Source: a virus. Taken from it: a stretch of 30,504 bases of DNA. This document shows positions 2,462-28,209 of the stretch, one piece after another. Each line of letters begins with the position of its first letter. Position 1 is the first letter of the stretch. The notes under the pieces were generated by a model. The model made no database searches, was not told the origin of the DNA, and saw nothing but the letters and a program-made list of their open reading frames with translations. Location: positions 1 to 30,504 of the IMG/VR virus record IMGVR_UViG_3300046791_000394; one strand, written 5' to 3'. The position numbers and the translations under genes were made by a program.

Positions 2462-2857
2462 ATGCGTCTGTCCGGAATTGCGCTGCTCGTTGTCGCCTGT
2501 GGGCCTTTACTGGACGAGGGTGACTATGATGTAGCGTTTACGACCCAGCGCGATTCATGCGGTGCGCCGGCGCCCGAACCGGCGATTTGGCGCATGTCTG
2601 AGGCCGGTGGGGCGTGGTCCCTCACGAACACGCGCAACGACTTCACCGCCACCGGGCGCGAGGCCGACGATCGCCTGAAATTCGACACGACCCAATATCA
2701 GACGAACGGGGCCGGGTGCCGTCTACGCGGCGACTACTCGATCGACCTGGATCCGGCCGGAGACGCCTTCGGTGGTGACATGCAGATTACGATCACGGCC
2801 GAGTGCGATGGGTCGATGTGTTCCGCGTCGTTTCTCTGCGATGGGGAGAAGCGCTAG
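2462..2857 (+). CDS. Prophage lipoprotein in the rex-like position (possible superinfection exclusion)
   Basis: 131 aa. The N-terminus MRLSGIALLVVAC has a basic n-region, a short hydrophobic core and a lipobox VVA-C (Cys13). The residue after the cysteine is Gly, so an outer-membrane destination would be expected under the enterobacterial Lol rule. The mature part has several further cysteines (RDSCG, GAGC, AECDG, MCSASFLC) that could form disulfides, and alternating beta-like stretches. The start at 2462 follows GGAGG by 5 nt; a longer in-frame reading upstream is rejected. The gene is convergent with the repressor gene (their stops overlap) and lies between the two operator pairs, where lambda carries rexB and rexA. 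Constitutive expression in a lysogen and a role in host surface change or exclusion are inferences. No family was recognised. Confidence 0.78.
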   Translation: MRLSGIALLVVACGPLLDEGDYDVAFTTQRDSCGAPAPEPAIWRMSEAGGAWSLTNTRNDFTATGREADDRLKFDTTQYQTNGAGCRLRGDYSIDLDPAGDAFGGDMQITITAECDGSMCSASFLCDGEKR

Positions 2858-3264
2858 TCGATCTTCTTCATCGCGCGGTAGGCATCGAGCGCTAGAAGGT
2901 AGGCCCGCGCCGTCATCGACCGGCCTTCGGGCGCCTCCAGGTTTTCCAGAAACTCGAGTTCGTCGGGCTGGACCTCGCCGGTTACCGCTTCGCTGGCTTC
3001 GAGCATCTTGTTGAGCTCGGGGTTGCGCGGCTGCTTCTCCTCACCGCGCTTTAGAAGGTCGTCAACGCTCACTTTTAACACCCGCGCCACGGCTCGGAGC
3101 GTGGCCGCACGACCTGACCCGCGTTTGAGCAGCATTTTCACCGAAGAGATCCCGGCCTCGTGGGCTAGCTCGTCCTGCGTCAGACCGAGAGTATCCATCC
3201 GGTCTCTGACATTTCGACGAAGGGCCGCGCGCTCGGCGGGGCTCAGGTTGGTCGTGTTGTCCAC
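2854..3264 (-). CDS. CI-like HTH repressor, short form without a peptidase domain
   Basis: 136 aa from a GTG at 3264. Residues about 15-70 form an HTH_3 (Cro/CI) domain: RDRMDTLGLTQDELAHEAGI, then SSVKMLLKRGSGRAATLRAV, then VLKVSVDDLLKRG. The C-terminus (about 75-136) is a short, acidic, helical segment with no S24 Ser-Lys dyad, so RecA-driven self-cleavage is not expected. The in-frame ATG at 3333 is disfavoured because it would put operator O3 inside the coding region. GTG lacks a clear Shine-Dalgarno site, and a leaderless or weak maintenance transcript is possible, so the start remains uncertain. It faces away from cro with operators O3 and O4 between, the standard layout of a lysogeny switch. 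Confidence 0.85.
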   Translation of the reverse strand: MDNTTNLSPAERAALRRNVRDRMDTLGLTQDELAHEAGISSVKMLLKRGSGRAATLRAVARVLKVSVDDLLKRGEEKQPRNPELNKMLEASEAVTGEVQPDELEFLENLEAPEGRSMTARAYLLALDAYRAMKKID

Positions 3265-3299
3265 CGAGCAAACGTAGCGGGCCGCGACAGGACGAGCAG

Positions 3300-3314
3300 C
3301 CAACAGCGTGTTAC
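3300..3314. promoter_or_regulatory. Operator O3 (right pair)
   Basis: CCAACAGCGTGTTAC has one perfect half-site and one with two mismatches to GTAACANNNTGTTAC. It lies upstream of the repressor start and 46 bp from O4, almost the same spacing as O1 to O2 (45 bp). On the minus strand it contains TAACAC, which could be a -10 for a weak repressor-maintenance promoter, although no good -35 is seen. Confidence 0.68.
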
Positions 3315-3323
3315 TTTTTACGC

Positions 3324-3352
3324 TTGCGCCCAAACGCGCAGGATGGTAACAC
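3324..3352 (+). promoter_or_regulatory. Rightward early promoter (pR-like)
   Basis: TTGCGC (3324-3329), a 17-bp spacer and TAACAC (3347-3352). The predicted start near 3359 leaves about 20 nt before the Cro ATG, including an AAGGG ribosome site at 3369. It mirrors the leftward promoter (TTGCAC, 17 bp, TAACGT), and its -10 is covered by O4. Confidence 0.72.
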
Positions 3353-3360
3353 GATGTTAC
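3346..3360. promoter_or_regulatory. Operator O4 (right pair, perfect palindrome)
   Basis: GTAACACGATGTTAC has perfect 6-bp arms around a 3-bp centre, making it the best match of the four-site family. It covers the -10 and the predicted start of the rightward promoter, so occupancy should shut off cro and the replication operon. Confidence 0.82.
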
Positions 3361-3378
3361 TCACGCACAAGGGAAAAA

Positions 3379-3594
3379 ATGAGCGCGCTCGGCAGGAACG
3401 TTAAACGCTTACGAACCCGAGCGGGGCTGACCCCTGCTGAGCTGTCGCGCAGAGCCGGGATTGCGTCGGTCCGCATGGTCGAGCGCAGAAGCGCGGCGCG
3501 GCTCGAGACGATCGAGAAACTGGCCGAGGCTCTTGGCTGCACCGTCTCCGACCTACTCAGCGAGCCGCGGCGGGCCAAGAGGGTCCGCCCGTGA
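3379..3594 (+). CDS. Cro-like HTH regulator
   Basis: 71 aa consisting almost only of an HTH domain: GRNVKRLRTRAGLTPAELSR, RAGIASVRMVERR, then TIEKLAEALGCTVSDLLSE. The recognition-helix region (AGIASVRM) is nearly the same as that of the repressor (AGISSVKM), and the final TVSDLL matches SVDDLL. The two probably arose from one ancestor and read the same operators. The start at 3379 is preferred to 3343 because it has AAGGG 5 nt upstream and lies downstream of the predicted transcription start; the longer form would begin inside the promoter. It is first in the rightward operon and its stop overlaps the next GTG. Confidence 0.85.
   Translation: MSALGRNVKRLRTRAGLTPAELSRRAGIASVRMVERRSAARLETIEKLAEALGCTVSDLLSEPRRAKRVRP

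Positions 3595-4230: not shown

Positions 4231-4259
<29 letters not shown>
3963..4259 (+). CDS. Small zinc-finger-like protein
   Basis: 98 aa from GTG 3963 (GTGA overlap). The recognisable element is VCACVEGGPVHAMGMCRACY at about residues 20-39, followed by GWWRRHGEE. The pattern (C-x-C, then H-x-x-G-x-C-x-x-C-Y) recurs in small phage zinc proteins and in the metal-binding part of some HNH-like proteins. The rest is basic and helical. Its last 29 bases overlap the start of the initiator gene at 4231. Nucleic-acid binding is likely from the fold type, but the role is unknown. Confidence 0.65.
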
Positions 4260-5111
<852 letters not shown>

Positions 5112-5112
<1 letters not shown>

Positions 5113-6477: not shown

Positions 6478-6965
6478 TGAAAAAGCATTTAGCGCTGTAC
6501 GGCAACGCAAAGATAACCAGGGGTTGGTGCTACGTGTGCCGTCGGTACGCCTTCGTTGTAGATGGCGCCATTCAGTGCTGCGATCGACCCGTCGATGACC
6601 AGGCGCCGACTAGGGCCAGGAGGATGAGCGAACCGCTCCAATCCAGAAAGCTACCTCCGCCCAAATGGCGCGCATGGAGGATGGAGCAGCAGGGGTTCAG
6701 GTGTTTCTACTGCGATCGGGCGTTCGATTCGTCTGTGGTCACCATGAGCGGAGGCAGGGTGAAGAAGAGGAGGCTGATGGCGGTTTGGGATCACATGACC
6801 CCGTTCAAGTATTCTCAGGACAACCGCGACCACAACTTTGTCGCAGCGTGTTGTTTATGTAACGGAATCAAGCGCGACAAGATTTTCCAGACGATCGAGG
6901 AGGCGCGCTTGTTCCTGGCGGCGCGGTGGGCTGAAATCCTAGTGACAGAGGCGGCTTTAGCGTAG
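6477..6965 (+). CDS. HNH endonuclease with N-terminal zinc knuckle
   Basis: 162 aa from ATG 6477 (a GTG one codon upstream is also possible). The N-terminus has cysteines in GWCYVCRRYAFVVDGAIQCC (about 17-35), probably one zinc site. The C-terminal half is an HNH domain: GFRCFYCDRAFD (CxxC at 76 and 79), WDHMTPFKYSQDNRDHN (Asp105-His106 and the central Asn/His), then CCLCNGIKRDKIF (CxxC and the trailing Asn/Lys). It is last in the rightward early operon and lies just before the terminase genes. HNH proteins beside terminases can assist packaging; a homing or host-DNA nuclease role is the alternative. Confidence 0.85.
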   Translation: MKKHLALYGNAKITRGWCYVCRRYAFVVDGAIQCCDRPVDDQAPTRARRMSEPLQSRKLPPPKWRAWRMEQQGFRCFYCDRAFDSSVVTMSGGRVKKRRLMAVWDHMTPFKYSQDNRDHNFVAACCLCNGIKRDKIFQTIEEARLFLAARWAEILVTEAALA

Positions 6966-6971
6966 TACCAT
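6942..6971 (+). promoter_or_regulatory. Putative late promoter
   Basis: GTGACA (6942-6947), an 18-bp spacer and TACCAT (6966-6971), within the end of the HNH gene. The -10 forms the left arm of a 14-bp palindrome. The gap that follows is the longest between plus-strand genes in this area and divides early from late genes. It is weak on its own; the palindrome makes it credible. Confidence 0.45.
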
Positions 6972-6979
6972 GCATGGTA
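6966..6979. promoter_or_regulatory. 14-bp perfect palindrome at the early/late junction
   Basis: TACCATGCATGGTA is fully self-complementary and unlike the GTAACA operators. It overlaps the putative -10 at 6966 and ends 23 nt before the first late gene, so it could be an operator for a second regulator of late transcription. Confidence 0.5.
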
Positions 6980-7002
6980 TCGCAGCGTAGGGCGAAAACC
7001 CC

Positions 7003-7338
7003 ATGTCGGTAGTCTCAGCACTTCTCCCACTCGAGCGCACCCGATGGTACCGGGACAAGGACGGCAACCTCTCGACGTCCAAGCGCTTCGACGAAATCGT
7101 AGGCTTGTCGCTCGACTTCACGGACCATCTTGCGTCGGCCGAGACGGTGAGCAGTGTGTCAACCGTGCCACACGGGGTGACCATCAGCGGTGCGAGCCTT
7201 GCCACGCCGGTTTGGACCGCGAACGTGACTGGCGTAGGGTATCTGGAGTGGACGGCGACGCTCAGCACCGGACGCGTGTTGCAGAGCTTGGTTTGCTTCT
7301 ACGGGACGGACGAGGCGCTGTTGAGCGATTACCGCTGA
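7003..7338 (+). CDS. Small beta-sandwich structural protein (fibre-tail adaptor-like)
   Basis: 111 aa. After a short N-terminus the sequence SLDFTDHLASAETVSSVSTV, then GVTISGAS and YLEWTATLSTGRVLQSLVCF follows the strand pattern of short Ig-like phage structural proteins annotated as fibre-tail adaptors ('DF...L....I.S...V....G..........V.......G..Y.....T.....GR'). No membrane segment. It lies between the early/late boundary and the terminase genes and is the first gene of the late block. The family assignment comes from pattern recall and is moderate. Confidence 0.6.
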   Translation: MSVVSALLPLERTRWYRDKDGNLSTSKRFDEIVGLSLDFTDHLASAETVSSVSTVPHGVTISGASLATPVWTANVTGVGYLEWTATLSTGRVLQSLVCFYGTDEALLSDYR

Positions 7339-7353
7339 GAACAGGATTGCTGA

Positions 7354-7659
7354 ATGGCATTCAGTAAAGGTCAGAGCGGCAACCCAGGTGGTCGGCCCAA
7401 GGCTGTCGTCGGCGTGGCCATGGTGGCGCGTGAGAACTGCCCGCGCGCCATCGAGCGTCTCGCCGAGCTCATGGATAGCGACGACGAGCGCGTTGCCGTG
7501 GCCGCATGCAACGCGGTGCTCGACAGGGGCTTGGGAAAGCCGGCGCAGTCTATACGCAAGACCGTGACCCACGTCCGCAAAAACCCGCGCGAGTTGTCGC
7601 TCGAGGAACTCGAGAAGCGCCTGGCAGAGCTGAGTGCGCAGGAGCCGGCACCCCATTGA
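7354..7659 (+). CDS. terS: DUF5681-type protein, probable small terminase subunit
   Basis: 101 aa. It opens with FSKGQSGNPGGRPK (about 3-16), the diagnostic DUF5681 signature that resembles an AT-hook. Helices follow: REN..RAIERLAELMDSDDE, RVAVAACNAVLDRGLGKPAQ and SLEELEKRLAELSAQ. Proteins of this type commonly sit just before the large terminase and are taken as the DNA-recognition subunit. AGGA lies 7 nt before the ATG. The large-subunit gene starts inside its last 26 bases, consistent with coupled synthesis. Confidence 0.75.
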   Translation: MAFSKGQSGNPGGRPKAVVGVAMVARENCPRAIERLAELMDSDDERVAVAACNAVLDRGLGKPAQSIRKTVTHVRKNPRELSLEELEKRLAELSAQEPAPH

Positions 7660-9112
7660 CGCCGAAGCGATCAAGGAAGAAATCCGCGCGCGCGTCCACG
7701 CGGCGCACGGCCTCCTCTCGTTCGCGAGGTACACGCACCCGAGCTGGCAAGCAGGGCCGCACCACGAAGCAATCTGCGACCTGCTTGAGCGAGTCGAGTC
7801 TGGACGAGTGCATCGGGCGATTATTGAAGCGCCTCCACGACACGGAAAGTCTGAGCTCGTTTCTCGTCGTTTCCCCGCATGGTACTTGGGTCGAAACCCC
7901 GAGCGCGAGGTCATCTCGACCGCGTACGGTGCCGACCTCGCGATAGACGAATACGGGCGCAAGGTCCGCAACATCGTCCGCGACCCAGCGTTCGGGAACG
8001 TCTTCCCCAACGTCGAGCTCGCCGAAGACTCGCAAGCCGCCGGCCGCTGGAACACGAACAAGGGCGGCGGCTACCTCGCAGCCGGCGTAGGCGGAGGCAT
8101 CACGGGACGCGGCGCGCACCTGTTCCTCGTCGATGACCCATTCAAGGGCCGCGCCGAGGCCGACAGCGAGCGCGAGCGCGCCATGGTGTGGAGCTGGTAC
8201 GACTCCGAGGTGAAGACGCGTCTTGCTCCGGGCGGCGCCATCGTCATCGTCAACACGCGCTGGCACGAGGAAGACCTCGCCGGCATGGTGTTGAAGCATC
8301 ACGGCGACGAGGGCTGGGAAGTGCTGAAGCTCCCCGCCATCGCGAACGAGGGTACCAAGAACGAGGCCGCGTTGTGGCCCGAGCGCTTCGACCTTGAATA
8401 TTTATGCGCGCTCCGCTCGAGCTACATGAAGTCTCACCCGCGCGAATGGCACGCGCTCTACCAGCAGTCGCCGCGGTCCGAGACGGGCACCTACATCAAG
8501 CGCGAGTGGTTCCAGCAGCGCTACGACAAGGCGCCAAAGACGAACGTATACATCGCCAGCGACTTCGCCATCACAGAGGCGGAGGAGGGCTCGGACCCGG
8601 ACTACACCGAGCACGGCGTGTTCGGGCTTGGCGCCGATGACAAGCTCTACGTGCTCGATTGGTGGAGCGGGCAGAAGACCACGGACGTGTGGGTCGAGGA
8701 ACTGTTGCGGCTCGTGCAGAAGTGGAAGCCGCTCTGCTGGTTCGGTGAGGGCGGCGTCGTCGGTAAGGCGGTCGAGCCACTCATGGTGCGGATGATGCGC
8801 GAGCGGCGGATCTACTGCCGCACCGAGAGACTGTCACCCATCCACGATAAGGCGACCCGCGGGCGTGCGTTTCAGGGCAGAGCGCACGCTGGGCACGTGC
8901 TGTTCCCGGGCGGGCAGGAGTGGGCCGAGCGCGTCATTAACCAGTGCGTCGCGTTCCCTGGCGGGGCGCATGACGATGCGTTCGACGTCATGGCGTGGAT
9001 GGGGCTTGCGATCGACCAGGCGCACCCGGCGATTGCGCGGCCTGCACCGAAGCCGGCCAAGCGACGCGACTACGCTGAGCCGCCAGTCGCCAACACTTTC
9101 AAAATCGTGTAG
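7634..9112 (+). CDS. terL: Terminase large subunit
   Basis: 492 aa from GTG 7634; no other start would keep the N-terminus. The ATPase domain shows Walker A EAPPRHGKSE (65-74), Walker B HLFLVDDP (162-169) and a coupling motif VNTRWHEEDLAG (206-217). The RNase H-like nuclease shows Asp310 in VYIASDFAIT, Glu372 in WFGEGG and an aspartate cluster in GAHDDAFDVMAW (444-455). The full length fits phage headful or cos packaging motors. It would dock on the portal, whose gene unexpectedly lies on the other strand. Confidence 0.96.
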   Translation: MRRSRHPIDAEAIKEEIRARVHAAHGLLSFARYTHPSWQAGPHHEAICDLLERVESGRVHRAIIEAPPRHGKSELVSRRFPAWYLGRNPEREVISTAYGADLAIDEYGRKVRNIVRDPAFGNVFPNVELAEDSQAAGRWNTNKGGGYLAAGVGGGITGRGAHLFLVDDPFKGRAEADSERERAMVWSWYDSEVKTRLAPGGAIVIVNTRWHEEDLAGMVLKHHGDEGWEVLKLPAIANEGTKNEAALWPERFDLEYLCALRSSYMKSHPREWHALYQQSPRSETGTYIKREWFQQRYDKAPKTNVYIASDFAITEAEEGSDPDYTEHGVFGLGADDKLYVLDWWSGQKTTDVWVEELLRLVQKWKPLCWFGEGGVVGKAVEPLMVRMMRERRIYCRTERLSPIHDKATRGRAFQGRAHAGHVLFPGGQEWAERVINQCVAFPGGAHDDAFDVMAWMGLAIDQAHPAIARPAPKPAKRRDYAEPPVANTFKIV

Positions 9113-9121
9113 GGAGGAACC

Positions 9122-9304
9122 ATGAACGGTAAAGGCTCATCCCCGCGCCCGATGACCGTGTCGCGCGAGGAGTTTCGGGAGAGATGGGAGGAGACGTTTC
9201 AGCGATCGCCGAGCCGTAGCTCGCGCCGAACGGCCTCAACGCGCTCGCGGGTGACCGGGGGCGAGCATGGCGGCGAGCACTCCAGCCAGACGCACGGCCG
9301 GTAG
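9122..9304 (+). CDS. Small ORF with strong ribosome site; possible truncated gene
   Basis: 60 aa. GGGAGGA sits about 4 nt before the ATG, one of the best ribosome sites in the window. The first 28 residues (SPRPMTVSREEFRERWEETF) look like a genuine charged helical protein. From about 9200 onward the reading becomes Ser/Arg/His/Gly-rich, just where it starts to overlap the minus-strand gene ending at 9199. This is what would be expected if a real gene had been joined to inverted DNA. It could also be an intact small protein. Confidence 0.42.
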   Translation: MNGKGSSPRPMTVSREEFRERWEETFQRSPSRSSRRTASTRSRVTGGEHGGEHSSQTHGR

Positions 9305-9375
9305 TTGGCCAGGCCGTAGCCAGACAACCTCGTCCGCCCCGGTTTGCAGCGCCGGCCGCAACGGTTGCAGGTCAA
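9199..9375 (-). CDS. Small cysteine-rich protein at the end of the minus-strand block
   Basis: 58 aa, taking TTG at 9375, which forms a TTGA overlap with the stop of the upstream gene; a longer ATG start at 9438 would overlap that gene heavily. The sequence TCNRCGRRCKPGRTRLSGYG, then YRPCVWLECSPPCSPP has six cysteines in CxxC-like spacing, suggesting a zinc knuckle. It ends in a charged helix (ERVEAVRRELRLGDR). It overlaps the plus-strand ORF at 9122-9304 tail to tail, so at most one of the two may be functional over its full length. Confidence 0.45.
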   Translation of the reverse strand: MTCNRCGRRCKPGRTRLSGYGLANYRPCVWLECSPPCSPPVTRERVEAVRRELRLGDR

Positions 9376-9779
9376 CGCCCGCTCATCGGCCGCGTCAGCC
9401 TGTCCTGATGCGTGATCATCCGCGCCGCGATGATGCACGCCGACACGAGCCGCCCCGGGATGTTGGTCTCACCGGCCTTCCCGTCCGACACGCGCTTGCC
9501 GACGACGCGGAACATGTTGGTGTGCGGGTTGTAGCCGAGAATGCGACCGACGCCGAAGCCGGTATCCCAGCCGACAGCCGCAACGCCTAGCTCGGCCTCG
9601 TACAGCGATAGGTCAGCCTCGGTCATGCGGATACCAGGCCCGGGGCCAGCCCACGCCTTGGCCCGCGCCGTGTCGAAGTAGCGCCGCCCGTCCAGGTGTG
9701 TCGCCCACCGGTCACGCTCCGGCTTATAGAGGCGGTTGTTCCGACGCCCAACGCGGGCCTCTTTGATAATGGCGACCAT
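9372..9779 (-). CDS. Protein of unknown function downstream of the portal gene
   Basis: 135 aa. The ATG at 9779 shares one base with the portal stop, and a GTG one codon upstream is an alternative. The sequence is mixed alpha/beta with no membrane span: RNNRLYKPERDRWATHLDGR, TEADLSLYEAELGVAAVGW, FGVGRILGYNPHTNMFRVV and GKAGETNIPGRLVSACIIAA. No family is recognised. Its tight coupling to the portal suggests a virion or portal-assembly role, but this is inference. Confidence 0.7.
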   Translation of the reverse strand: MVAIIKEARVGRRNNRLYKPERDRWATHLDGRRYFDTARAKAWAGPGPGIRMTEADLSLYEAELGVAAVGWDTGFGVGRILGYNPHTNMFRVVGKRVSDGKAGETNIPGRLVSACIIAARMITHQDRLTRPMSGR

Positions 9780-11875
9780 CACACTCCTCCAGGCGGACCC
9801 ATGCCGCCGCTGAACGCACCGCTCATCTTCTCGCCAGCGCTCGCAGCGTGGAGCATCGACTGCGCCTTGCTCTGCTCGATGTCGGCCTGGGCTTTCGGCC
9901 CGGTCGTCTGCGCCTTCGCCATGCTCTCCGCGGCCCTCGCCTTGTTGAGCTGGGCCATGGACTGCGTCACGTCGAGCTGAGCTTTCGCGCCGGCCATCTG
10001 CATCTGCTGTTGCATCTGCTGCTGTTGGGCCTGTTGCGGGTTCGGCGGCTTGTCCATCTCTTTGAGGATCTCGCGCTTGTCGCGGAAGGCGGACAGCTTG
10101 ATCAGCGTCTTCACGAGCAGGCCGGCGAGGTCCGGGCGGGCCTGCAACGTCGGCGCGAACAGCTCGGACAGCTTCGCGAACTCCTCATCCTCGAGGACCG
10201 CGGTCTCGGGCGCTTCGGTGATGGTGATGTCGACCATTGCCTCGGCGACATCGTTCTCGATGATCTGAACCTGCATCGCCGGGTCCTGAGCGATCATCGC
10301 GAGCATGTGCTGCTCGCCGCCGGGCGGTGGCTGACCCATCATCATCGCCTGCTCCGACATGAACTGGTGCATCTGCTGGACGCGTTGCATGATGCTTTGC
10401 GCGTCCTGGGCCGCTGCGGTCTGGAACGCGACCGGCATCGGCACGCCCTTCTGGAGGAGCTCCTGCATGCGCTGGGTGCGCGTCAGGCGGCGGTTCAGAC
10501 CGACCCAGCGGTAACCGGCGGTCTCCTCCTCGTCGGTGACACGCAGCCACAGTTCATCCGTCCAGAACTGCTTGATGCAGCCGTAGATGTGCCAGTAGGT
10601 GTTGAGGCGCCACTTGCCGAAGATCTCGAAGACGGGGCCGTTCGCTCGCGCCGCGCTCTTCTGGCGAGCCATGAACGCACGGCCCGATGCACCCTGGGGC
10701 AGGTCGGGCAGGTTGGCCGAGGCGGGACCGACGCCATCGAGCGCCTGCTTTGCCTCCTGTAGCATCGCGACCTGGCCGTTGGTCATGTCGGCGCCGGTGT
10801 TGATCTGGATACGCCCTTCCTGGAGCGCTCCGGGACTGACCTTCACCGCGCCGTCGGGCCTCGCGAGCTCCTCGAGGGCGTTGTTGATGTCCTCGACTGA
10901 GCCGTCCTCGTAGACGACCTGGCGCGTGTTCGTCTGGTGCAGCCACTTCGAATAGCGCTTGTTCACCTCGTCCTGGGGCGAGATCATGTCCCGCACCGGT
11001 CCGTGCGCCATGTTGTCGTCATCGACATAGCAGCGGATGGCGACGATCGGGCACCATGGCCGTCCCGTGCGCGGGTCGAGGTAGGCCGAGGGTGCAAACT
11101 CGCTCAGCTCGATCGAGTCGGTGAAGTCGCTGCGGTACCAGTCCTTGCCGACCCGCTCGTACATCTCGCAGATCTTGACCCGCTTGCGCTTGCCGTCGAA
11201 CCAGAACTTCGGCCGGTCATCGGTCGTGTCGTCGCCTACGCCGAAGTGGCGCTCGCAACCCTTCTCGAGCTCGGCGGCCTTGTCGGGGTAGATCTCAAGC
11301 GCGTCGTCGAGATCGAACCACTGGATGTTCGCGATCCACTTCGCATCGGAGCAGTCGCGGCGATGCGCCTTCGGGTCGATCGCGAGCTGCTTCCACGGGA
11401 TATGCAGCGCGGTGCAGCGGTAGCCGTCGTCGCTGTCGCTCTGGATGATGCTGCCGCCGTAACCCGCGTTGAGCAGGTCGAGCATCACGTCGCCGCCGAT
11501 CTCGTCGAGCTGCTGGTCCTCCTCGACGAACCGGAGCGCATCCGTCATCGCCCTGGCGCTGTCCTCGTGCTTCGGAGTGCGCGGCTTGGCTACCGGGTCA
11601 ACGCGCTTGTCGATCTCCTCGCCGCGGATCGAGTTGACCTTCCCGCGGATGAGGTTGCGGACGGTGGGCGGCTGCTTGCGCTTGTTGAGCGCTCGCAGTT
11701 CCTCCGCGGTGTACTGCTTGCCATAGTAGTACTGCTCGTCTCGGAGGCTCTCCTGTCGTGCATCGGCAGTCGACGCCATCCAGTCGTCAATACGGTCCAC
11801 GCGCGAGGACAGAGATGGAGCCTCGACGGCCTCAACCTCGACTTCGACCACCGCGACGGGAGCCGCGTCAGCCAT
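9779..11875 (-). CDS. Portal protein, P22 type
   Basis: 698 aa, close to the 725 aa of the P22 portal. Typical features: YYYGKQYTAEELRALNKRKQ, PPTVRNLIRGKVNSIRGEE near 70-85, FVEEDQQLDEIGGDVMLDLL, YGGSIIQ and IPWKQLAIDPKAHRRDCSDA (about 165-185), RDMISPQDEVNKRYSKWLHQ, and GASGRAFMARQKSA followed by FGKWRLNTYWHI. The C-terminal 90 residues are a Gln/Ala/Met-rich coiled coil, comparable to the P22 portal barrel. It should form the dodecameric DNA gate at the capsid vertex. The ATG lies 3 bp after the fibre-like gene and has no strong ribosome site, so translation is probably coupled. Its strand is opposite to terminase and capsid, unlike P22. Confidence 0.93.
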   Translation of the reverse strand: MADAAPVAVVEVEVEAVEAPSLSSRVDRIDDWMASTADARQESLRDEQYYYGKQYTAEELRALNKRKQPPTVRNLIRGKVNSIRGEEIDKRVDPVAKPRTPKHEDSARAMTDALRFVEEDQQLDEIGGDVMLDLLNAGYGGSIIQSDSDDGYRCTALHIPWKQLAIDPKAHRRDCSDAKWIANIQWFDLDDALEIYPDKAAELEKGCERHFGVGDDTTDDRPKFWFDGKRKRVKICEMYERVGKDWYRSDFTDSIELSEFAPSAYLDPRTGRPWCPIVAIRCYVDDDNMAHGPVRDMISPQDEVNKRYSKWLHQTNTRQVVYEDGSVEDINNALEELARPDGAVKVSPGALQEGRIQINTGADMTNGQVAMLQEAKQALDGVGPASANLPDLPQGASGRAFMARQKSAARANGPVFEIFGKWRLNTYWHIYGCIKQFWTDELWLRVTDEEETAGYRWVGLNRRLTRTQRMQELLQKGVPMPVAFQTAAAQDAQSIMQRVQQMHQFMSEQAMMMGQPPPGGEQHMLAMIAQDPAMQVQIIENDVAEAMVDITITEAPETAVLEDEEFAKLSELFAPTLQARPDLAGLLVKTLIKLSAFRDKREILKEMDKPPNPQQAQQQQMQQQMQMAGAKAQLDVTQSMAQLNKARAAESMAKAQTTGPKAQADIEQSKAQSMLHAASAGEKMSGAFSGGMGPPGGV

Positions 11876-11878
11876 GGG

Positions 11879-13168
11879 TTACTGCGGGCCGCAGTAGTAG
11901 TTGACGAGCTTGACGTCCGGAGCCGACGCGCCCGAGGCCCCGATGATGATGGTCGGGACAACGACCGTCGCCGCGGTGAACGTGAACGCTACCGCACTCG
12001 CGTCGGTCGCGAGGGCAGCGTAAGCAGCAACCACAGCCGCCTGCATCTGGGCCGCCGTGGAGCCGGCCGGGGTTGTCGTCGCGAGCTTGTAGGTCACGAC
12101 GCCGCCGGCGGACACGTTGACCTCGATGGCCAGAATGTCGCCGTTGGCCGCCGCTGCATGAGCGAGGGCGGTCGAAACGTCGACGTTCGCCTTGCTCGTC
12201 TCGGTGGACAGCGCCCCGGCGTTGTCCTTGATGCCGATGCACGCCTTTTCCGGGTAGGCGGTCTGAAACTCGGCGAGCGTGCTGGCCGTTACGTATGCCC
12301 CGAGCACACGGAAACCGGCCATGAGGTGGGTAATGTTCGCGCGGGTCGTGACGAGGAAAGCGCACCGGAGCTTGAACGCCGCAGACGTTCCGGTCAGATA
12401 CGAGCGGGCCGAGCCGAGCACGATGCCCTGCGTGATCTCGAGACTGTCGGTCGCTGTATTGTCGAGAGTGAGCAGCCAACCGGTGGTGCTCGGGGTGAGC
12501 CCGTTGGCGGCAAGAAGCGTGTCCGCGCCGAGCGCGCCGACACCCTGGGCGAGCTCGAAGTAGTGCTCCGGGCTGCCGACCCAGAAGAAGTCCTGCTGTG
12601 CATTCGCCGCGGTCTTGATGGCACCGGTCGTCTTGGCGAAAAGCGGGACCTCGCGCTCCTGGGTGAAGTCGATCGAGGTGGCGTTGCTGATCGCCGAGGC
12701 CATCGACACCCATGATGGGACGAGCCCGTCCGTGGTGGCCAGGACAGTGTTCGCGGCGCCGATGCCCAGGCGCGCCAGCGTCGAGGCCGTGGCCTTGTAG
12801 ATCAGGTCGCCCGCGGCCTGGCTGGCCTGGGTGATGTTGATCAGGGCCGTCAGCCCGGCCGAAGACAGCGTGATGTCACCCGTGACCGCCTGCGAAACGA
12901 CGTCCGTGCCGTCGCCCATGACGATCTGGCCGGCGGCCTTAGCTGCGAATCGTTCGAGCGCGGATGTTCCGCGCCTGAGCAGATCGCCGCGGACGTTGTT
13001 GGCCACCTCGAGGTCGGCCGTGATGCCGGTCGCGTCGGCCCGAGCGACAACCGAGTCGGCGATCACCAAGGCGAGCTGGCTGGCTGTCTTGTCCCAGTAG
13101 ACGCCGTACGACTGGCCGTAGACGGTCCCGCCGGTGGCCCTTACGTAGCGATCAGGATTCAGCGCCAT
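11879..13168 (-). CDS. Fibre-like virion protein with C-terminal beta-sandwich
   Basis: 429 aa. The first 170 residues contain short fibre modules: GDLLRRGTSALERFAAKAAG, QIVMGDGTDVVSQAVTGDIT, SSAGLTALINITQA and GDLIYKATASTLARLGIGAA, like repeats in phage tail and head fibres. Residues about 185-429 form a larger beta-rich domain (FFWVGSPEHYFELAQG ... AFKLRCAFLVTTRANITHLM ... APDVKLVNYYCGPQ) resembling concanavalin-like modules found on phage virions. GGAGTAA precedes the ATG. It has no signal peptide. Lying directly before the portal, it may be a head or tail decoration or a receptor-binding fibre. Which of these is unknown. Confidence 0.68.
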   Translation of the reverse strand: MALNPDRYVRATGGTVYGQSYGVYWDKTASQLALVIADSVVARADATGITADLEVANNVRGDLLRRGTSALERFAAKAAGQIVMGDGTDVVSQAVTGDITLSSAGLTALINITQASQAAGDLIYKATASTLARLGIGAANTVLATTDGLVPSWVSMASAISNATSIDFTQEREVPLFAKTTGAIKTAANAQQDFFWVGSPEHYFELAQGVGALGADTLLAANGLTPSTTGWLLTLDNTATDSLEITQGIVLGSARSYLTGTSAAFKLRCAFLVTTRANITHLMAGFRVLGAYVTASTLAEFQTAYPEKACIGIKDNAGALSTETSKANVDVSTALAHAAAANGDILAIEVNVSAGGVVTYKLATTTPAGSTAAQMQAAVVAAYAALATDASAVAFTFTAATVVVPTIIIGASGASAPDVKLVNYYCGPQ

Positions 13169-13174
13169 GCGTCG

Positions 13175-13342
13175 TTACTCCGGGCAAATGCAGTCGTAGT
13201 CGCCGATCGCGTCGTGCTGGCAGATCTCATCGCGCGCATCGCACGGCGGCGCCGGGACAGGCGGGCGTGTCTTCGGGCCACAGCAGTACACGGCGACCCC
13301 TAGACCGGCGGCGAGCACGATCGTGGTGATGAAGCGGACCAT
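13175..13342 (-). CDS. Small exported or membrane protein, Cys/Pro-rich (55 aa)
   Basis: ATG at 13342, 5 bp after the stop of the lipoprotein gene; its stop is 6 bp before the fibre gene. MVRFITTIVLAAGLGVAVYC gives a basic n-region and hydrophobic span ending in Cys-Cys. The rest, CGPKTRPPVPAPPCDARDEI and then CQHDAIGDYDCICPE, is Pro-rich with five more cysteines. VYC is a poor lipobox, so either an uncleaved anchor or an atypical lipoprotein is possible. A long alternative reading through this region (to 13948) is antisense-like and rejected. The function is unknown. Confidence 0.6.
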   Translation of the reverse strand: MVRFITTIVLAAGLGVAVYCCGPKTRPPVPAPPCDARDEICQHDAIGDYDCICPE

Positions 13343-13347
13343 CGCGG

Positions 13348-14277
13348 TTACTCGCGCTGCCAGGCGCAGCGGATACGGTCGACGAGCAAGTCGGGGGTGG
13401 TGGTGCCGCTCGTCTTCTCGATGTGGACGGCGGGCTGGATCGCCTTGTCGAGGCCGATCGAGAAAGTCGTATTGGGCAGGTAGCGGGTCCATGCCGCGCC
13501 CGTGGTCGTGCGGATGAAGAAGCAAACGTTGGTCGGCGAGCAGTAATCGCCCGGGTCGTTCGTGCCGTTGTGCATCGAGTTCATCGAGACCATGTATTCG
13601 TACATGGTGCCGGCAACCATGTCCGCGGTGGTGTCGGTGGCGTTGACGTCGGTGGAGTTGTCGTCGGACATCGCGTCGATGTTCAGGTCGGCGCCGGCGA
13701 CACTGAACCCCGCGTTGACGGTAGTCGAGTCGATCAAGTCGTTCTGGGCGCTCGTGAAGCCCCAAAACAGGGTGTCGGCTGCGGCTGGCGCGACCTGGGC
13801 GGTGAGCCGGAACACGCAAAACGGCTCGGTGTCGCTGTCGATACTGAGGTAGTTGCCGAAATTCACGTCGCAGTCGCCGACCTCGCTGCCGTTGTCGAGC
13901 AGGAGCTCCATGGCGCCGTTGTCGTAATCGTCCTTCGCCGCCGGGCACCCAGCGGTCGCTGTGTCGTCACCATTCCACGGGCCCTGGGCGAGGTCGTTGG
14001 TATCGATGTCCGGGAGCACGGTCAGCCCGAGGAAGTCCTCGTCGATCGAGACATACAGCGAGGAGTTGAACATCGCGTCAATCTCGCTATTCGTGACGAG
14101 CCCGGCCCCCTTGTTGTCGACGTCGAAGCCGATACCGTCACTGCGGCCAGAAAACGGGCCCTTGTTGCCCATCCGGTACTCGTTCTGGATGTCGGTCGAG
14201 CCAGCCGCGGACGCCTCGGTCCGGGTGCATGCCGCCAGAGCCAGCACAGCGAAGAGGAAGATCGAGGTGTTTCGCAT
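13348..14277 (-). CDS. Lipoprotein carrying a virion-type beta-sandwich domain
   Basis: 309 aa. MRNTSIFLFAVLALAAC has a textbook lipobox LAA-C (Cys17); the next residue, Thr, predicts the outer membrane. The mature part is a large beta-rich domain: SIDEDFLGLTVL, PFCVFRLTAQVAPAAADTLF, WGFTSAQNDL, GTMYEYMVSMNSMHNGT, CFFIRTTTGAAWTRYLPNTT, and PAVHIEKTSGTT then LLVDRIRCAWQRE. This order (comparison of variant, synthetic-looking strands ending in 'D.IR..WQR') recalls concanavalin-like or decoration domains of phage structural proteins. At least six cysteines could form disulfides. AAGGAG lies about 10 nt upstream. It is first in the minus-strand block, opposite the double-palindrome control region. 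An exported virion-like protein is unexpected; receptor masking or exclusion is one idea. Confidence 0.75.
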   Translation of the reverse strand: MRNTSIFLFAVLALAACTRTEASAAGSTDIQNEYRMGNKGPFSGRSDGIGFDVDNKGAGLVTNSEIDAMFNSSLYVSIDEDFLGLTVLPDIDTNDLAQGPWNGDDTATAGCPAAKDDYDNGAMELLLDNGSEVGDCDVNFGNYLSIDSDTEPFCVFRLTAQVAPAAADTLFWGFTSAQNDLIDSTTVNAGFSVAGADLNIDAMSDDNSTDVNATDTTADMVAGTMYEYMVSMNSMHNGTNDPGDYCSPTNVCFFIRTTTGAAWTRYLPNTTFSIGLDKAIQPAVHIEKTSGTTTPDLLVDRIRCAWQRE

Positions 14278-14323
14278 CTAAGACAGTCTCCTTGTCCTGA
14301 TATCGAGACACCACTACGCCCGT

Positions 14324-14340
14324 TTTGACAAAATGTCAAA
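14324..14340. promoter_or_regulatory. Palindromic operator copy 1 in the divergent control region
   Basis: TTTGACAAAATGTCAAA is a perfect inverted repeat (7-bp arms, 3-bp centre). It contains the consensus -35 hexamer TTGACA on both strands. An identical copy follows 22 bp downstream, two helical turns apart, as expected for cooperative binding of a dimeric regulator. On the minus strand, TTGACA (14339-14334) is 17 bp from TAGTGG (14316-14311), a poor -10 for the lipoprotein operon. Confidence 0.75.
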
Positions 14341-14345
14341 GATTG

Positions 14346-14362
14346 TTTGACAAAATGTCAAA
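14346..14362. promoter_or_regulatory. Palindromic operator copy 2 in the divergent control region
   Basis: An identical 17-bp palindrome to the copy at 14324, separated from it by 5 bp. Its plus-strand TTGACA (14347-14352) supplies the -35 of the scaffold/capsid promoter. A protein bound here would therefore compete with polymerase or recruit it. Confidence 0.75.
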
Positions 14363-14376
14363 ACTGGGTGTAACCT
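14347..14376 (+). promoter_or_regulatory. Promoter of the scaffold-capsid operon
   Basis: TTGACA (14347-14352), an 18-bp spacer and TAACCT (14371-14376). The -10 is of the same TAAC type as the early promoters. The predicted start at about 14383 is within a few bases of the scaffold ATG at 14386, so the first message may be leaderless. Confidence 0.58.
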
Positions 14377-14385
14377 CCTCACCGC

Positions 14386-15222
14386 ATGAGCGAGACGCCC
14401 ATCGGAACCCCCGTCCAGCACCAAGAAGGTGCCGGCGCTAGCGCTAAGCCGGAGACCGGCGCGGCTGCGAGCGATACCCAGGCCAGAACCACCCAGTCGA
14501 GCGAGACGCAGGCTGGCGGGCAGACTGAACCGGCGGAAGATCCGATTGCAGGGCTGAAAAGCGCCCTAGGGAAAGAGCGCGAGCGGGCCGGGCGGCTCGA
14601 AAAAGAGACCAAGGCGGAGAAGCGCGAGCGTCAGAAGCTGGCGATGCAGCTCCAGCAGATGACGAGCGAGCTCGCCACCCTACGGACGGCCTCTCAGCAG
14701 GTCGATCCGAAGGCGCTGGCGGACAAGTTCTACAGCGGGCCGGAGACGTTCGTCACCGAGCAGGTATCGTCCGTCAAGCAGGAGATCTTCAAGACCCAGA
14801 TGATCGAGCGCGTCGAGACCAGCAAGGAGCTCGCGCGCGATCGCTACGAAGACTTCGACGAGGTTGAGGCCGCGTTCCTCGAGGCGGCGCAGAAAGACGC
14901 CTCGCTGTGGAACGGGGTCAACGAGAGCCGCTTACCGGCTCTGCTCGTCTACAAGAGGGGCAAGAAGCTCCTCGAATCCTCGGGCGCTCCAGCCGCCGAG
15001 GACCGAATCGCAAAGCTCGAGGCGGAGATCGCCTCTCTCAGGGCCGGCCGTGATGGCGGGCAAACCACTACGGAGACCGAGACGGTTACCGCGGCGGCGC
15101 AGAAGCCATCCATCCAGAAATCCAACGTCGGCGCTCGCGGAACGAGTGTCGGCAAAACCACCACGTGGGCCGGGCCGACTCCAGACGAAAAGATCTGGGG
15201 GCGTCAGCGGGCTGCGCGGTGA
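14386..15222 (+). CDS. Scaffolding protein
   Basis: 278 aa, placed directly before the major capsid gene. Residues 1-55 are disordered and Ala/Thr/Gln-rich. About 60-110 form a charged coiled coil (GKERERAGRLEKETKAEKRE ... LAMQLQQMTSELATL). The middle is helical (FYSGPETFVTEQVSSVKQEI, RYEDFDEVEAAFLEAAQ, ALLVYKRGKKLLE), then a second coiled coil (RIAKLEAEIASLRAG), then a Thr-rich linker and a short basic end (DEKIWGRQRAAR). This acidic, helical plan with a basic C-terminus is usual for phage scaffolds, whose tail contacts the coat protein. No Shine-Dalgarno site precedes the ATG; the upstream CCTCCT is the complement of one. Confidence 0.8.
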   Translation: MSETPIGTPVQHQEGAGASAKPETGAAASDTQARTTQSSETQAGGQTEPAEDPIAGLKSALGKERERAGRLEKETKAEKRERQKLAMQLQQMTSELATLRTASQQVDPKALADKFYSGPETFVTEQVSSVKQEIFKTQMIERVETSKELARDRYEDFDEVEAAFLEAAQKDASLWNGVNESRLPALLVYKRGKKLLESSGAPAAEDRIAKLEAEIASLRAGRDGGQTTTETETVTAAAQKPSIQKSNVGARGTSVGKTTTWAGPTPDEKIWGRQRAAR

Positions 15223-15239: not shown

Positions 15240-16349
15240 GTGCCCGATACCTCAATCGCGACAGCGAACCAGCTCGCACAGTGGGCTGACGAGCATCTCG
15301 TCGAGTACGTCCGGATGAACCCGTTGAACGACCTCGCGGGCACCGATGACGGCTCGATCATCCACGTCAAGACGGACCTCTCGAAGTCGCGAGGCACGTC
15401 GATCACGTTCCAGCTCGTGGGTCGTCTGAACGGCGCCGGCGTCACCGACGACGCGCAGTTGATGGACAACGAAGAGCAGCTCGACACCTACGGCTATGCT
15501 GTCACGGTGCACCAGCTCCGCAACGGCGTGCGCCGGGGCGAGTACGAGCAGCAGAAGTCGAACATCGAAGTCCTGAACGCGGCGAAGACCGTGCTCCGGA
15601 TGTGGTGGGCCGACCAGGACCGCGACCTCTGGATCGCGCGCATGCTGTCGCCGAACGTCGACGGCGTCACGACCTACGCCAACTCGACCGAGACCCAGAA
15701 AGACACCTGGCTCTCGACCAACAACCCGAGCACGGCGAACCAGCGCATCCTCGTGGGGGCGGCGAAGGTCAGCACGGTCAGCGGCGACCACAGTACCTCG
15801 CTGGCTCTCATCGACGGCTCGGCCGATGACCTGCACCCGGACATCGTCTCGCTGGGCAAGCGCCTGGTGAAGACGTGCGACCCGCATATCCGCCCGTACA
15901 AGATCAAGGATGGCGGCGAGGAATGGTACGTGCTGCTCGCCGGCTCGATCGCCTTCCGCGACCTGGCCGCGAACATGAGCACGATCCATCAGAACGCGGC
16001 ACCGCGCTCGATGGACGAGAACCCGCTCTTCCGTGACCGCGACCTTGTCTATGACGGCGTCATCATCAAGGAGGTCCCGGAGATGTCGCGCGAGCACACC
16101 TCCGGCGGCGCTCTCATCTCGAACGTCGGCGACAGTGGCACGACCGAGGTTGAGGCGACGTTCCTGCTCGGAGCTCAGGCCGTGTGCCACGCGGTGGCGC
16201 AGAAGCCGGCCGTGCGCACGGATGACTTCGACTACGGCAATCTGAGCGGCGTGGCGGTCACGATGACCCGCGGCGCCGGCAAGGCGACCTTCAACAACAG
16301 CATCCAGCACGGCATGGCGACGGTCTACGTCTCCGCCGTCGGGGACTAA
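15240..16349 (+). CDS. Major capsid protein, N4-gp56 / DUF4043 type
   Basis: 369 aa from GTG 15240 with GGAG 7 nt upstream. Family landmarks: LNDLAGTDDGSIIHVKTDLS, KSRGTSITFQLVGRLNGAGV, TDDAQLMDNEEQLDTYGYAV, TVHQLRNGVRRGEYEQQKSN (about 60-105), then AAKTVLRMWWADQDRDLWIA. The 'G..ITF.L...L.GAGV..D..L..NEE.L' motif is characteristic of this HK97-fold capsid group. Later parts include IRPYKIKDGGEEWYVLLAGS and FLLGAQAVCHAVAQKPAVRT. Strong expression is expected. The combination with a P22-type portal and tail proteins is consistent with a podovirus-type particle. Confidence 0.92.
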   Translation: MPDTSIATANQLAQWADEHLVEYVRMNPLNDLAGTDDGSIIHVKTDLSKSRGTSITFQLVGRLNGAGVTDDAQLMDNEEQLDTYGYAVTVHQLRNGVRRGEYEQQKSNIEVLNAAKTVLRMWWADQDRDLWIARMLSPNVDGVTTYANSTETQKDTWLSTNNPSTANQRILVGAAKVSTVSGDHSTSLALIDGSADDLHPDIVSLGKRLVKTCDPHIRPYKIKDGGEEWYVLLAGSIAFRDLAANMSTIHQNAAPRSMDENPLFRDRDLVYDGVIIKEVPEMSREHTSGGALISNVGDSGTTEVEATFLLGAQAVCHAVAQKPAVRTDDFDYGNLSGVAVTMTRGAGKATFNNSIQHGMATVYVSAVGD

Positions 16350-26662: not shown

Positions 26663-26670
26663 GAGACATG

Positions 26671-27159
26671 ATGAAGCTCAGCACCGCTACCGCCCTGTTT
26701 GCCGCGCTCCTCGCCCCGTCATTGGCCTTGTCCGCGCCAGCCCCATCCGCTGACACCGCCCAGGCAAACAACGCGCTGTCGGGTGTTGCTCTCAATGCCT
26801 CGGCCGGAACCCGCACGCTCACCGCGAGCTTCGACTACAAGGCCGGTGTGCCGGCGCCGTTCACCAAGTGGCGCGTTTCGGTGTTCTACACCTACTCGGC
26901 GGCAACGACGGTTACGGCGGTCTTCTCGTGCGCGCAGGACGGCACGAACTATGCGAGCCTGACGAGCCGGAGCATTGCGGCCGGTGCCTCGACGGTCTCG
27001 ATCGTCACCGACACGTACACCACCAGCGGCGCGAGCGCAGACCTCATGCTCGAGTACGATATTCAGGGGTGCGCCAAGGCAAAGATCGTCTTCGGTGGGG
27101 CGTCCGCTGGCGCTGGTGACCTCATCACGGTCGACTGGGTTGCCGTGGTGGGTGGATAA
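26671..27159 (+). CDS. Exported beta-sandwich protein next to the tailspike
   Basis: 162 aa from ATG 26671, 5 nt after AGGAG (an ATG one codon earlier is too close). MKLSTATALFAALLAPSLAL followed by SAPAPSADTAQ looks like a Sec signal peptide with AxA-type cleavage near residue 22. The mature part is all beta: RTLTASFDYKAGVPAPFTKW, RVSVFYTYSAATTVTAVFSC, AQDGTNYASLTSRSIAAGAS, LMLEYDIQGCAKAKIVFGGA and ITVDWVAVVGG, a jelly-roll-like order with two cysteines. It lies within the tail-fibre region, where export signals are not expected. It could be a virion protein that passes the membrane, or a surface modifier. Confidence 0.72.
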   Translation: MKLSTATALFAALLAPSLALSAPAPSADTAQANNALSGVALNASAGTRTLTASFDYKAGVPAPFTKWRVSVFYTYSAATTVTAVFSCAQDGTNYASLTSRSIAAGASTVSIVTDTYTTSGASADLMLEYDIQGCAKAKIVFGGASAGAGDLITVDWVAVVGG

Positions 27160-27160
27160 T

Positions 27161-28123
27161 ATGCGAACCTGGCTCCTCGCCGCAGCTCTCGTCATGATCG
27201 GGTCCGCAGCGATCGCGACGGACAACTACGGCCTGATCGAATCCAAGCCCAACGGCGCTGCGTTCACGCAGAACGGTGACGTGACGTTCGGCGCCACCAA
27301 CGGCCCGTTCATCGAGAACGCCGCGAGCTCCACAACTAACCCGACGCTCGTGCCGGACAAGGCGAGTCCGACCGCAGGCGTCGGTGGAACGAGCGGCGAC
27401 GTGGACATCATCACGGCCGGCGTGTCCCGCATCAATGTGGACACGGCGGGCGCAGTAACCAACGCCACGAGCACTACGTTCAATGCGAACGTGGTGCTGA
27501 TCAGCAACAGCGAGGCAAACTTCGGCACCGGCAGCCTCGCGAACATCGCCTACCGCACCGAGCAGACGCCGGATAGCTGGATTTTCGCCGTTCCGCCGGC
27601 CAGCAACGCGCTTCTCATCATGGAGAGCGCCGACCGCACGACCGACATGGGGCACGCGCAGCAGACGAACCCCACCGTGTATCTCCATAGCGCCGACGCG
27701 ACCAATACGGCGCAGTGGGTGAGCCTAGTTCACAACCAGACGAACGCCGTAGTTTCCACCGGGGCCGGCGACCTCAGCGTTACCCCGGCCGGTCTCGATG
27801 TTCTGGTCACGGGCCGTATCTCATCGGTGCCGACCACGCTGATTTCCCTCGACGCCGCCACGGCCATTGCCATCACGCGCAATTTCCACAACGTCGATTG
27901 CGTCGGGGCCGAGACGATAACGACAGCCACGGGCGGCACGGCCGGGATGATTCTGACGCTGCTGTTCAACACGGATTCCGACGTCTGCACTCTTACAGAC
28001 ACCGCCGCGGCCACCGCCGACACGTTCAACCTGAGTGCGGCGTTTGCCTCGACGACTGGAGACACCATCACGTTCATCCATGACGGAACGAAGTGGTACG
28101 AGATTGGGCGGGCCGTAAACTAA
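27161..28123 (+). CDS. Exported fibre-like protein A
   Basis: 320 aa, starting 1 bp after the previous stop; the upstream in-frame extension is rejected. MRTWLLAAALVMIGSAAIA is a good Sec signal peptide, with mature start TDNYGLIE. The body is beta-rich and Thr/Asn/Ala-rich (FTQNGDVTFGATNGPFIENA, VDIITAGVSRINVDTAGAVT). The C-terminus, TLLFNTDSDVCTLTDTAAAT, LSAAFASTTGDTITFIHDG and TKWYEIGRAVN, matches the capping domain of many phage fibres ('...G..I.L......W.E'). It shares the exported A-[TS]DNYGL motif with the protein at 28206, so the two are probably paralogues. Confidence 0.75.
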   Translation: MRTWLLAAALVMIGSAAIATDNYGLIESKPNGAAFTQNGDVTFGATNGPFIENAASSTTNPTLVPDKASPTAGVGGTSGDVDIITAGVSRINVDTAGAVTNATSTTFNANVVLISNSEANFGTGSLANIAYRTEQTPDSWIFAVPPASNALLIMESADRTTDMGHAQQTNPTVYLHSADATNTAQWVSLVHNQTNAVVSTGAGDLSVTPAGLDVLVTGRISSVPTTLISLDAATAIAITRNFHNVDCVGAETITTATGGTAGMILTLLFNTDSDVCTLTDTAAATADTFNLSAAFASTTGDTITFIHDGTKWYEIGRAVN

Positions 28124-28209
28124 TGCGTCTCTCGTCGCTCACGCAAACCACGCTGCGGGCCTACTATCGCGTCAACATGATGGGGCCGGGCGAGCCGCTG
28201 CCGCAATGA
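28123..28209 (+). CDS. 28-codon mini-gene coupling two exported proteins
   Basis: The ATG at 28123 forms a TAATG overlap with the stop of the previous gene, and its TGA overlaps the ATG at 28206 (ATGA). Translation starts MRLSSLTQTTLRAYYRVNMM and ends with PGEPLPQ. There is no other reading in the gap between two large genes, and its junctions are the same as those of real genes here. It may serve only as a coupling leader. Confidence 0.45.
   Translation: MRLSSLTQTTLRAYYRVNMMGPGEPLPQ

Follow-up and report, generated by a model that had tools for sequence, protein, structure and literature searches.

Twin palindromes in the gap between the divergent portal and scaffold-coat operons of a P22-like phage: a candidate late promoter/operator

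How might the portal and coat genes of a phage be controlled when they are read away from each other out of one short gap? The question is raised by an uncultivated P22-like phage from an IMG/VR virus record. The window, meaning the whole stretch of DNA that was analysed, is 30,504 bp long and classed as linear. It contains a divergent intergenic region of 108 bases (14278-14385) between the starts of ORF 13348-14277 on the minus strand and ORF 14386-15222 on the plus strand. The leftward operon consists of five minus-strand ORFs with gaps of 5, 6, 3 and -4 bp. The first (13348-14277) has a lipobox-like N-terminus (MRNTSIFLFAVLALAAC) and probably encodes a virion or surface protein, with no relative in PHROG, Pfam or phages. 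It is followed by a small ORF with a lipoprotein-like start (MVRFITTIVLAAGLGVAVYCC...; 13175-13342, part of ORF 13175-13948), the gene of an accessory structural protein weakly like that at 6655-7749 of locus L324 (11879-13168), the portal gene (9779-11875; family match to phrog_156) and a last gene matching no family (9372-9782). The first gene of the rightward operon (14386-15222) encodes the scaffold protein, as assigned by tblastn matches to the gene directly before coat in 27 loci. Next comes the gene of the major head (coat) protein (15240-16349; family match to phrog_334), and the genes, also packed, continue through the tail towards the contig end. The TerL gene (7634-9112), read rightward, and the leftward operon converge.

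Since the five leftward ORFs are too tightly packed, the portal promoter is expected in 14278-14385 unless it is intragenic. This is the sole non-coding stretch able to start both operons, and the gene layout makes its role as a divergent control region well supported. The AT skew flips sign here, consistent with the switch of coding strand.

The relatives of this phage are arranged differently. Coat relatives (35-46% identity) comprise 80 IMG/VR loci and the phages Pan3, Pam1, Pam5 and CBW1004C-Prop1. Portal and coat genes are co-directional in 66 of the 66 relative loci in which both were detected; the window alone has an inverted portal block. The block spans 9372-14277 and is inverted relative to both TerL and coat. 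IMG/VR held no close relatives of the two genes flanking the gap, and phage records gave no close relatives of the leftward-operon genes. Site-specific inversion was considered and rejected, as no 10-mer in either orientation is shared between 9001-9420 and 14231-14430. Misassembly of the block may account for the inversion, though the tight operon and the well-formed starts speak against it. No tRNAs were found.

The gap contains two copies of TTTGACA-AAA-TGTCAAA, one at 14324-14340 and one at 14346-14362. As reported in the earlier note, the copies are identical (17 of 17 bases) and their centres, 14332 and 14354, are 22 bp apart. The same note placed a TTGACA hexamer on both strands of each palindrome, and counting agrees with it: TTGACA occurs three times and TGTCAA four times in the whole window, and two of each belong to the twin site. 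Its description of the spot as the most AT-rich is also borne out, 14278-14385 ranking first in the window at scales of 30, 40, 60 and 100 bp (75% AT over 40 bp at the twin site versus a window GC of 64.7%). Strictly, each 17-mer is a 7-bp inverted repeat flanking a non-palindromic AAA core that points the same way in the two copies. The rest of the 30,504-bp window has no further copy of the pattern at up to three mismatches, and 100 dinucleotide shuffles gave 0 matches. The twin palindromes are real and are not a product of chance. Both are probable operators; the sites are new and most likely serve, as a pair, to bind a regulatory protein.

The dyad symmetry reaches past the palindromes, from 14315 to 14372 (TACGCCC-G-TTTTGACA ... 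TGTCAAAAC-T-GGGTGTA), forming an extended imperfect dyad, TACGCCCG...CTGGGTGTA. As RNA this stretch folds with a z of -8.0, a value that carries the caveat that two inverted palindromes necessarily pair with one another. The flanking match alone is of modest significance, being reached by about 2% of random pairs (p about 0.02). An RNA element could be read into this fold, namely a scaffold-leader hairpin of 58 nt that stands in for the RNA hairpins of relatives. The stability of the fold (z -8) agrees with that, as does the structured RNA found in the corresponding slot of relatives. The hairpin is however the automatic outcome of the two inverted palindromes, its identical AAA cores would fail to pair and on either strand transcription is predicted to start only beyond it, near 14304 (minus) and 14384 (plus), and we consider an RNA element here extremely improbable. 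Searching the twin site against Rfam returned only weak microRNA and snoRNA matches far below threshold, as expected by chance.

Each palindrome supplies a candidate -35 element found by hexamer search. For the leftward promoter this is TTGACA (6/6; 14334-14339, minus strand), followed after a 17-bp spacer by a weak candidate -10, TAGTGG (2/6; 14311-14316, minus strand), read from the sequence. For the rightward promoter it is TTGACA (6/6; 14347-14352, plus strand), followed after an 18-bp spacer by the equally tentative -10 candidate TAACCT (3/6; 14371-14376, plus strand). A sigma-70 consensus scan of the gap found no promoter at 9/12 or better. With perfect -35s and weak -10s, the predicted promoter activity owes more to gene layout than to sequence. 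The earlier proposal of two-way control over the portal block and the coat operon is upheld as to the divergent gap and its paired sites; TTGACA may act as a -35, though neither -10 is good. The first leftward gene has a Shine-Dalgarno sequence, AAGGAG (14288-14293, minus strand), 10 nt before its ATG. None precedes the scaffold gene 14386-15222, and TAACCT ends 9 nt ahead of the scaffold ATG, so the scaffold mRNA may be leaderless. TTGACA on both strands between divergent genes could also mean a constitutive bidirectional promoter that serves without any regulator, its -35s being palindromic by chance. This is quite improbable, as it leaves unexplained why two identical 17-mers have the same core and a spacing, 22 bp, that recurs elsewhere.

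The reading towards which we lean is that 14278-14385 is a divergent late promoter/operator, where dimers of a helix-turn-helix regulator on the twin palindromes shut off both operons. Two dimers of one such regulator would sit two helical turns from each other, on one side of the DNA. The 10-bp spacing of half-sites fits a helix-turn-helix dimer. At the left palindrome the -35 of the portal-block promoter, which reads leftward, would be masked, and at the right palindrome that of the rightward promoter of the scaffold-coat-tail operon; binding of the regulator would silence both promoters and its release would turn both on. A protein probably binds the twin palindromes, and it would be a repressor rather than an activator because the sites overlap the -35s. 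It may well be encoded by the phage. That it is XRE-like is a fair guess and no more, made from the layout that the sites have in common with the immunity operators of this phage. Its gene may be missing from the contig, which is linear and 30.5 kb long versus 35-39.5 kb for related complete genomes. In favour of the repressor model are the twin sites with their lack of shuffle matches, the recurring 22-bp geometry in viral contigs and the gene packing. Against it are the poor -10s, the scan without a promoter and the outer bases, which are unlike those of the immunity operators. Conservation is unusable as support, since no relative checked carries the twin site: it is absent from the four known relatives (Pan3, Pam1, Pam5 and CBW1004C-Prop1), and the IMG/VR coat relatives have no full TTGACA-N3-TGTCAA at 0 mismatches.

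Two divergent XRE genes (2854-3333 and 3343-3594; a CI/Cro-like pair) lie in the immunity region, together with four operator-like GTAACA-N3-TGTTAC sites in two pairs. One site reads GTAACA-CGA-TGTTAC (3346-3360); the others are the variants CCAACAGCGTGTTAC (3300-3314), GTAACATCGTGTTCT (2399-2413) and GTAACAGCACGTTAC (2354-2368). The centres in the pairs 2354/2399 and 3300/3346 are 45-46 bp apart. Together the four sites (2354-2413 and 3300-3360 of the window) make an OL/OR-like layout around the two XRE genes. The late palindromes had been described as unlike these operators. Comparison with the four sites does not sustain this: TTGACA departs from GTAACA in its outer bases, but the 6-N3-6 symmetric layout and the ACA-N3-TGT core are common to both. 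Like lambda-type OL/OR operators, the late sites are paired symmetric palindromes. They depart from the immunity consensus GTAACA-N3-TGTTAC, with a half-site match of 4/6 and TTG in place of GTA at the outer bases. They also differ in the spacing of centres (22 bp versus 45-46 bp) and in lying among late genes. Repressor sites outside an immunity region are familiar from the cluster A mycobacteriophage L5, whose stoperators lie over a -35-like TGTCAA and, in difference from the twin site, are many per genome. Stoperators are described as single sites that lack symmetry and are bound by a repressor acting as a monomer (PMC9283540).

Divergent transcription of portal and capsid genes has a precedent in phage P2. 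Its P-Q operon (terminase, portal) runs leftward and its O operon (scaffold, capsid) rightward, and the annotation places an activator site at 3057-3087, between the P-Q operon start at 3016 and the O operon start at 3127. In the window, too, divergent portal and scaffold/capsid operons flank one non-coding gap and would come under shared regulatory control. By layout, and by layout only, the phage might be counted as P2 type. P2 is an unrelated phage, and the distance from its annotated activator site to either start is about 55 bp. In the present gap the -35s are overlapped by a pair of identical palindromes, and TerL reads rightward so that only the portal part is divergent. The earlier note had called a two-way switch in a virion-gene cluster unusual, a view at odds with the P2 divergent late promoters pP and pO, which share one activator site. 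Given P2, the control gap is of an ordinary kind; its form is new, as is its occurrence in this phage group. Taken further, the likeness suggests that a late activator, Ogr-like in role, could act from about -50 on the distal promoter and turn both operons on late. The predicted distances from palindrome to start are about -29 and about -50 to -52, the latter being that of each palindrome centre from the opposite predicted start. This recalls the single P2 site about 55 bp from both starts in a similar gene layout, and the weak -10s would fit a promoter needing help. Repression is nevertheless favoured by the two perfect -35s, over which the sites lie, and no activator gene turned up in the window: Pfam found no Ogr/delta-type zinc-finger activator among 20 window ORFs, on a contig that may be incomplete. 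We regard late activation of this kind as possible but unlikely. Whatever the regulator, a P22-like phage appears to have attained the P2 solution, with portal and capsid operons running apart from one control gap, by means of different sites.

The twin motif is common in bacterial genomes, where it tends to TTGACAC-N-GTGTCAA. Cellular pairs have spacings of 26, 36 and 41-43 bp, with 22 bp at one of about 120 loci. Of 248 sites, 95 have a CNG core and 104 others have one of the two bases. In the cases tested, 4 of 4, the motif lay next to TetR_N genes. Paired TTGACAC-N-GTGTCAA operators beside TetR-family genes are widespread, in Alphaproteobacteria, Clostridia and others (loci L132-L250). The motif frame is common to several protein families, so it is spacing and core that tell the families apart. 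The late site has the TTGACA-N3-TGTCAA frame of the cellular TetR-type operators, which are frequently paired in promoters. It differs from them in its AAA core (theirs being of the C-N-G type), in its spacing of 22 bp rather than 26, 36 or 41-43 bp and in its place among phage late genes. The sites could have been acquired from a host regulator, for example one of TetR type, through which moron-like leftward lipoprotein genes of the prophage track the state of the host. Such pairs are indeed common in bacterial promoters beside TetR_N genes, and the first leftward genes have lipobox-like starts; the mismatch in spacing and core, and the presence of the portal gene in the same leftward operon, make host control distinctly unlikely. 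The FNR/HcpR box, with the consensus TTGAC-N4-GTCAA and even spacing (PMC545781), was rejected, as the twin site is TTGAC-N5-GTCAA and has the wrong spacing.

The twin layout recurs in other viral contigs. Five unrelated contigs have two full-arm copies of TTGACANNNTGTCAA spaced by exactly 22 bp, and with 5-bp arms the twin form at 22 bp is found in 54. Among spacings of 18-48 bp, 22 bp is the commonest. In phage records, twin-site DNA gave only short chance-like matches. The 22-bp contigs split into at least two classes, the many with arrays in O-like initiator genes and those with intergenic, promoter-like twins. The latter make up three of the five full-arm contigs (L122, L123 and L126); here the right copy forms a -35, and TATAAT, TAGTAT or TATATC follows exactly 17 bp on. 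The L126 twin matches that of the window at 16 of 17 bases, and its array precedes a TerS-TerL-phrog_156 portal operon; the L257 array is upstream of a TerS gene. Single palindromes were rejected as promoters: single TTTGACANNNTGTCAAA copies in viral contigs lie mostly in coding DNA, with no -10 peak at 17 bp or at any fixed distance.

Origin iterons are the most likely explanation for the arrays that lie within the O-like replication initiator genes. TGACA-N3-TGTCA arrays of this kind were seen in diverse phages (L264, L265, L267-L269, L292, L294, L297-L299 and L306). Their repeats, 21-23 bp apart, resemble the twin site; they differ in their coding location, in outer bases that are often G/C and usually in having more copies. 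The twin site might itself be a set of origin iterons bound by a lambda-O-like initiator, since such arrays are found in the initiator genes of many phages, the L292 initiator is HTH_36/DnaD-like and the twin site is the AT-richest DNA. With only two copies, placed between structural genes and outside an initiator gene, with outer bases TT..AA, and with none in the initiator-like ORF of the window (4231-5112), this is very improbable. In that ORF, 12-bp CTCCTGCTCCTG tandem repeats (4601-4666) encode a Pro-Ala linker.

The slot before the scaffold gene is filled differently in relatives. Of 84 coat-bearing loci, 70 have a unit of the form stem-G[CTA]CGCCG-stem-linker-CGGGCG upstream of the scaffold gene; 39 carry two copies of it and 5 carry three. 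Its 3-bp stem forms, through CG, GC, AT and TA pairs, in 85 of the 102 distinct units, whereas 500 shuffles gave 14.9 on average and never more than 24. An alignment of 25 rows, picked for similar unit length, has a covariation score of 0.436 versus 0.123 after shuffling, and all slid versions fall below it. The invariant loop CGCC is able to pair with an invariant downstream GGCG as an H-type pseudoknot; the invariance is neutral on that helix. The covarying hairpin (stem-GCCGCCG-stem-n-CGGGCG) was seen 400-1300 bp upstream of the coat gene in loci L324-L403 and L310-L313, for example at about 8630-8690 of L344. In several relatives a terminator-like hairpin with a T-run precedes the units. 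A scan of the window and four loci gave no Rfam match that reached the gathering score, and for one slot a limit of E up to 5 brought up nothing beyond chance-level matches. Sigma-70 promoters in the scaffold gaps of relatives were rejected, being no more frequent than in shuffles (mean 5.2 versus 5.5). P22 itself lacks such a leader, as only 13 bp separate its portal and scaffold genes.

The RNA hairpin is a candidate control of scaffold/coat expression. It is absent from the window, where the twin palindromes occupy its slot. It may tentatively be suggested, though with considerable doubt, that the slot before the scaffold gene is dedicated to the control of head assembly, usually by structured RNA, often in tandem and with a conserved loop able to form a pseudoknot, and here by a twin-operator DNA switch that, with the portal inversion, couples portal and coat transcription. 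The twin site offers a compact 60-bp target for tracking down a late-gene regulator. Attention is also drawn to the gap before scaffold genes in general, the covarying RNA of the relatives being a natural candidate for control of the scaffold-to-coat ratio.

Signal-peptide or lipobox-like starts are found in accessory virion-type proteins at several places in the window (13348-14277, 13175-13342, 26668-27159, 27159-28123 and 28206-29267). The same kind of start is seen in L324 (6655-7749) and L370 (5368-5730). Such starts are odd for virion-type proteins, which are put together in the cytoplasm.
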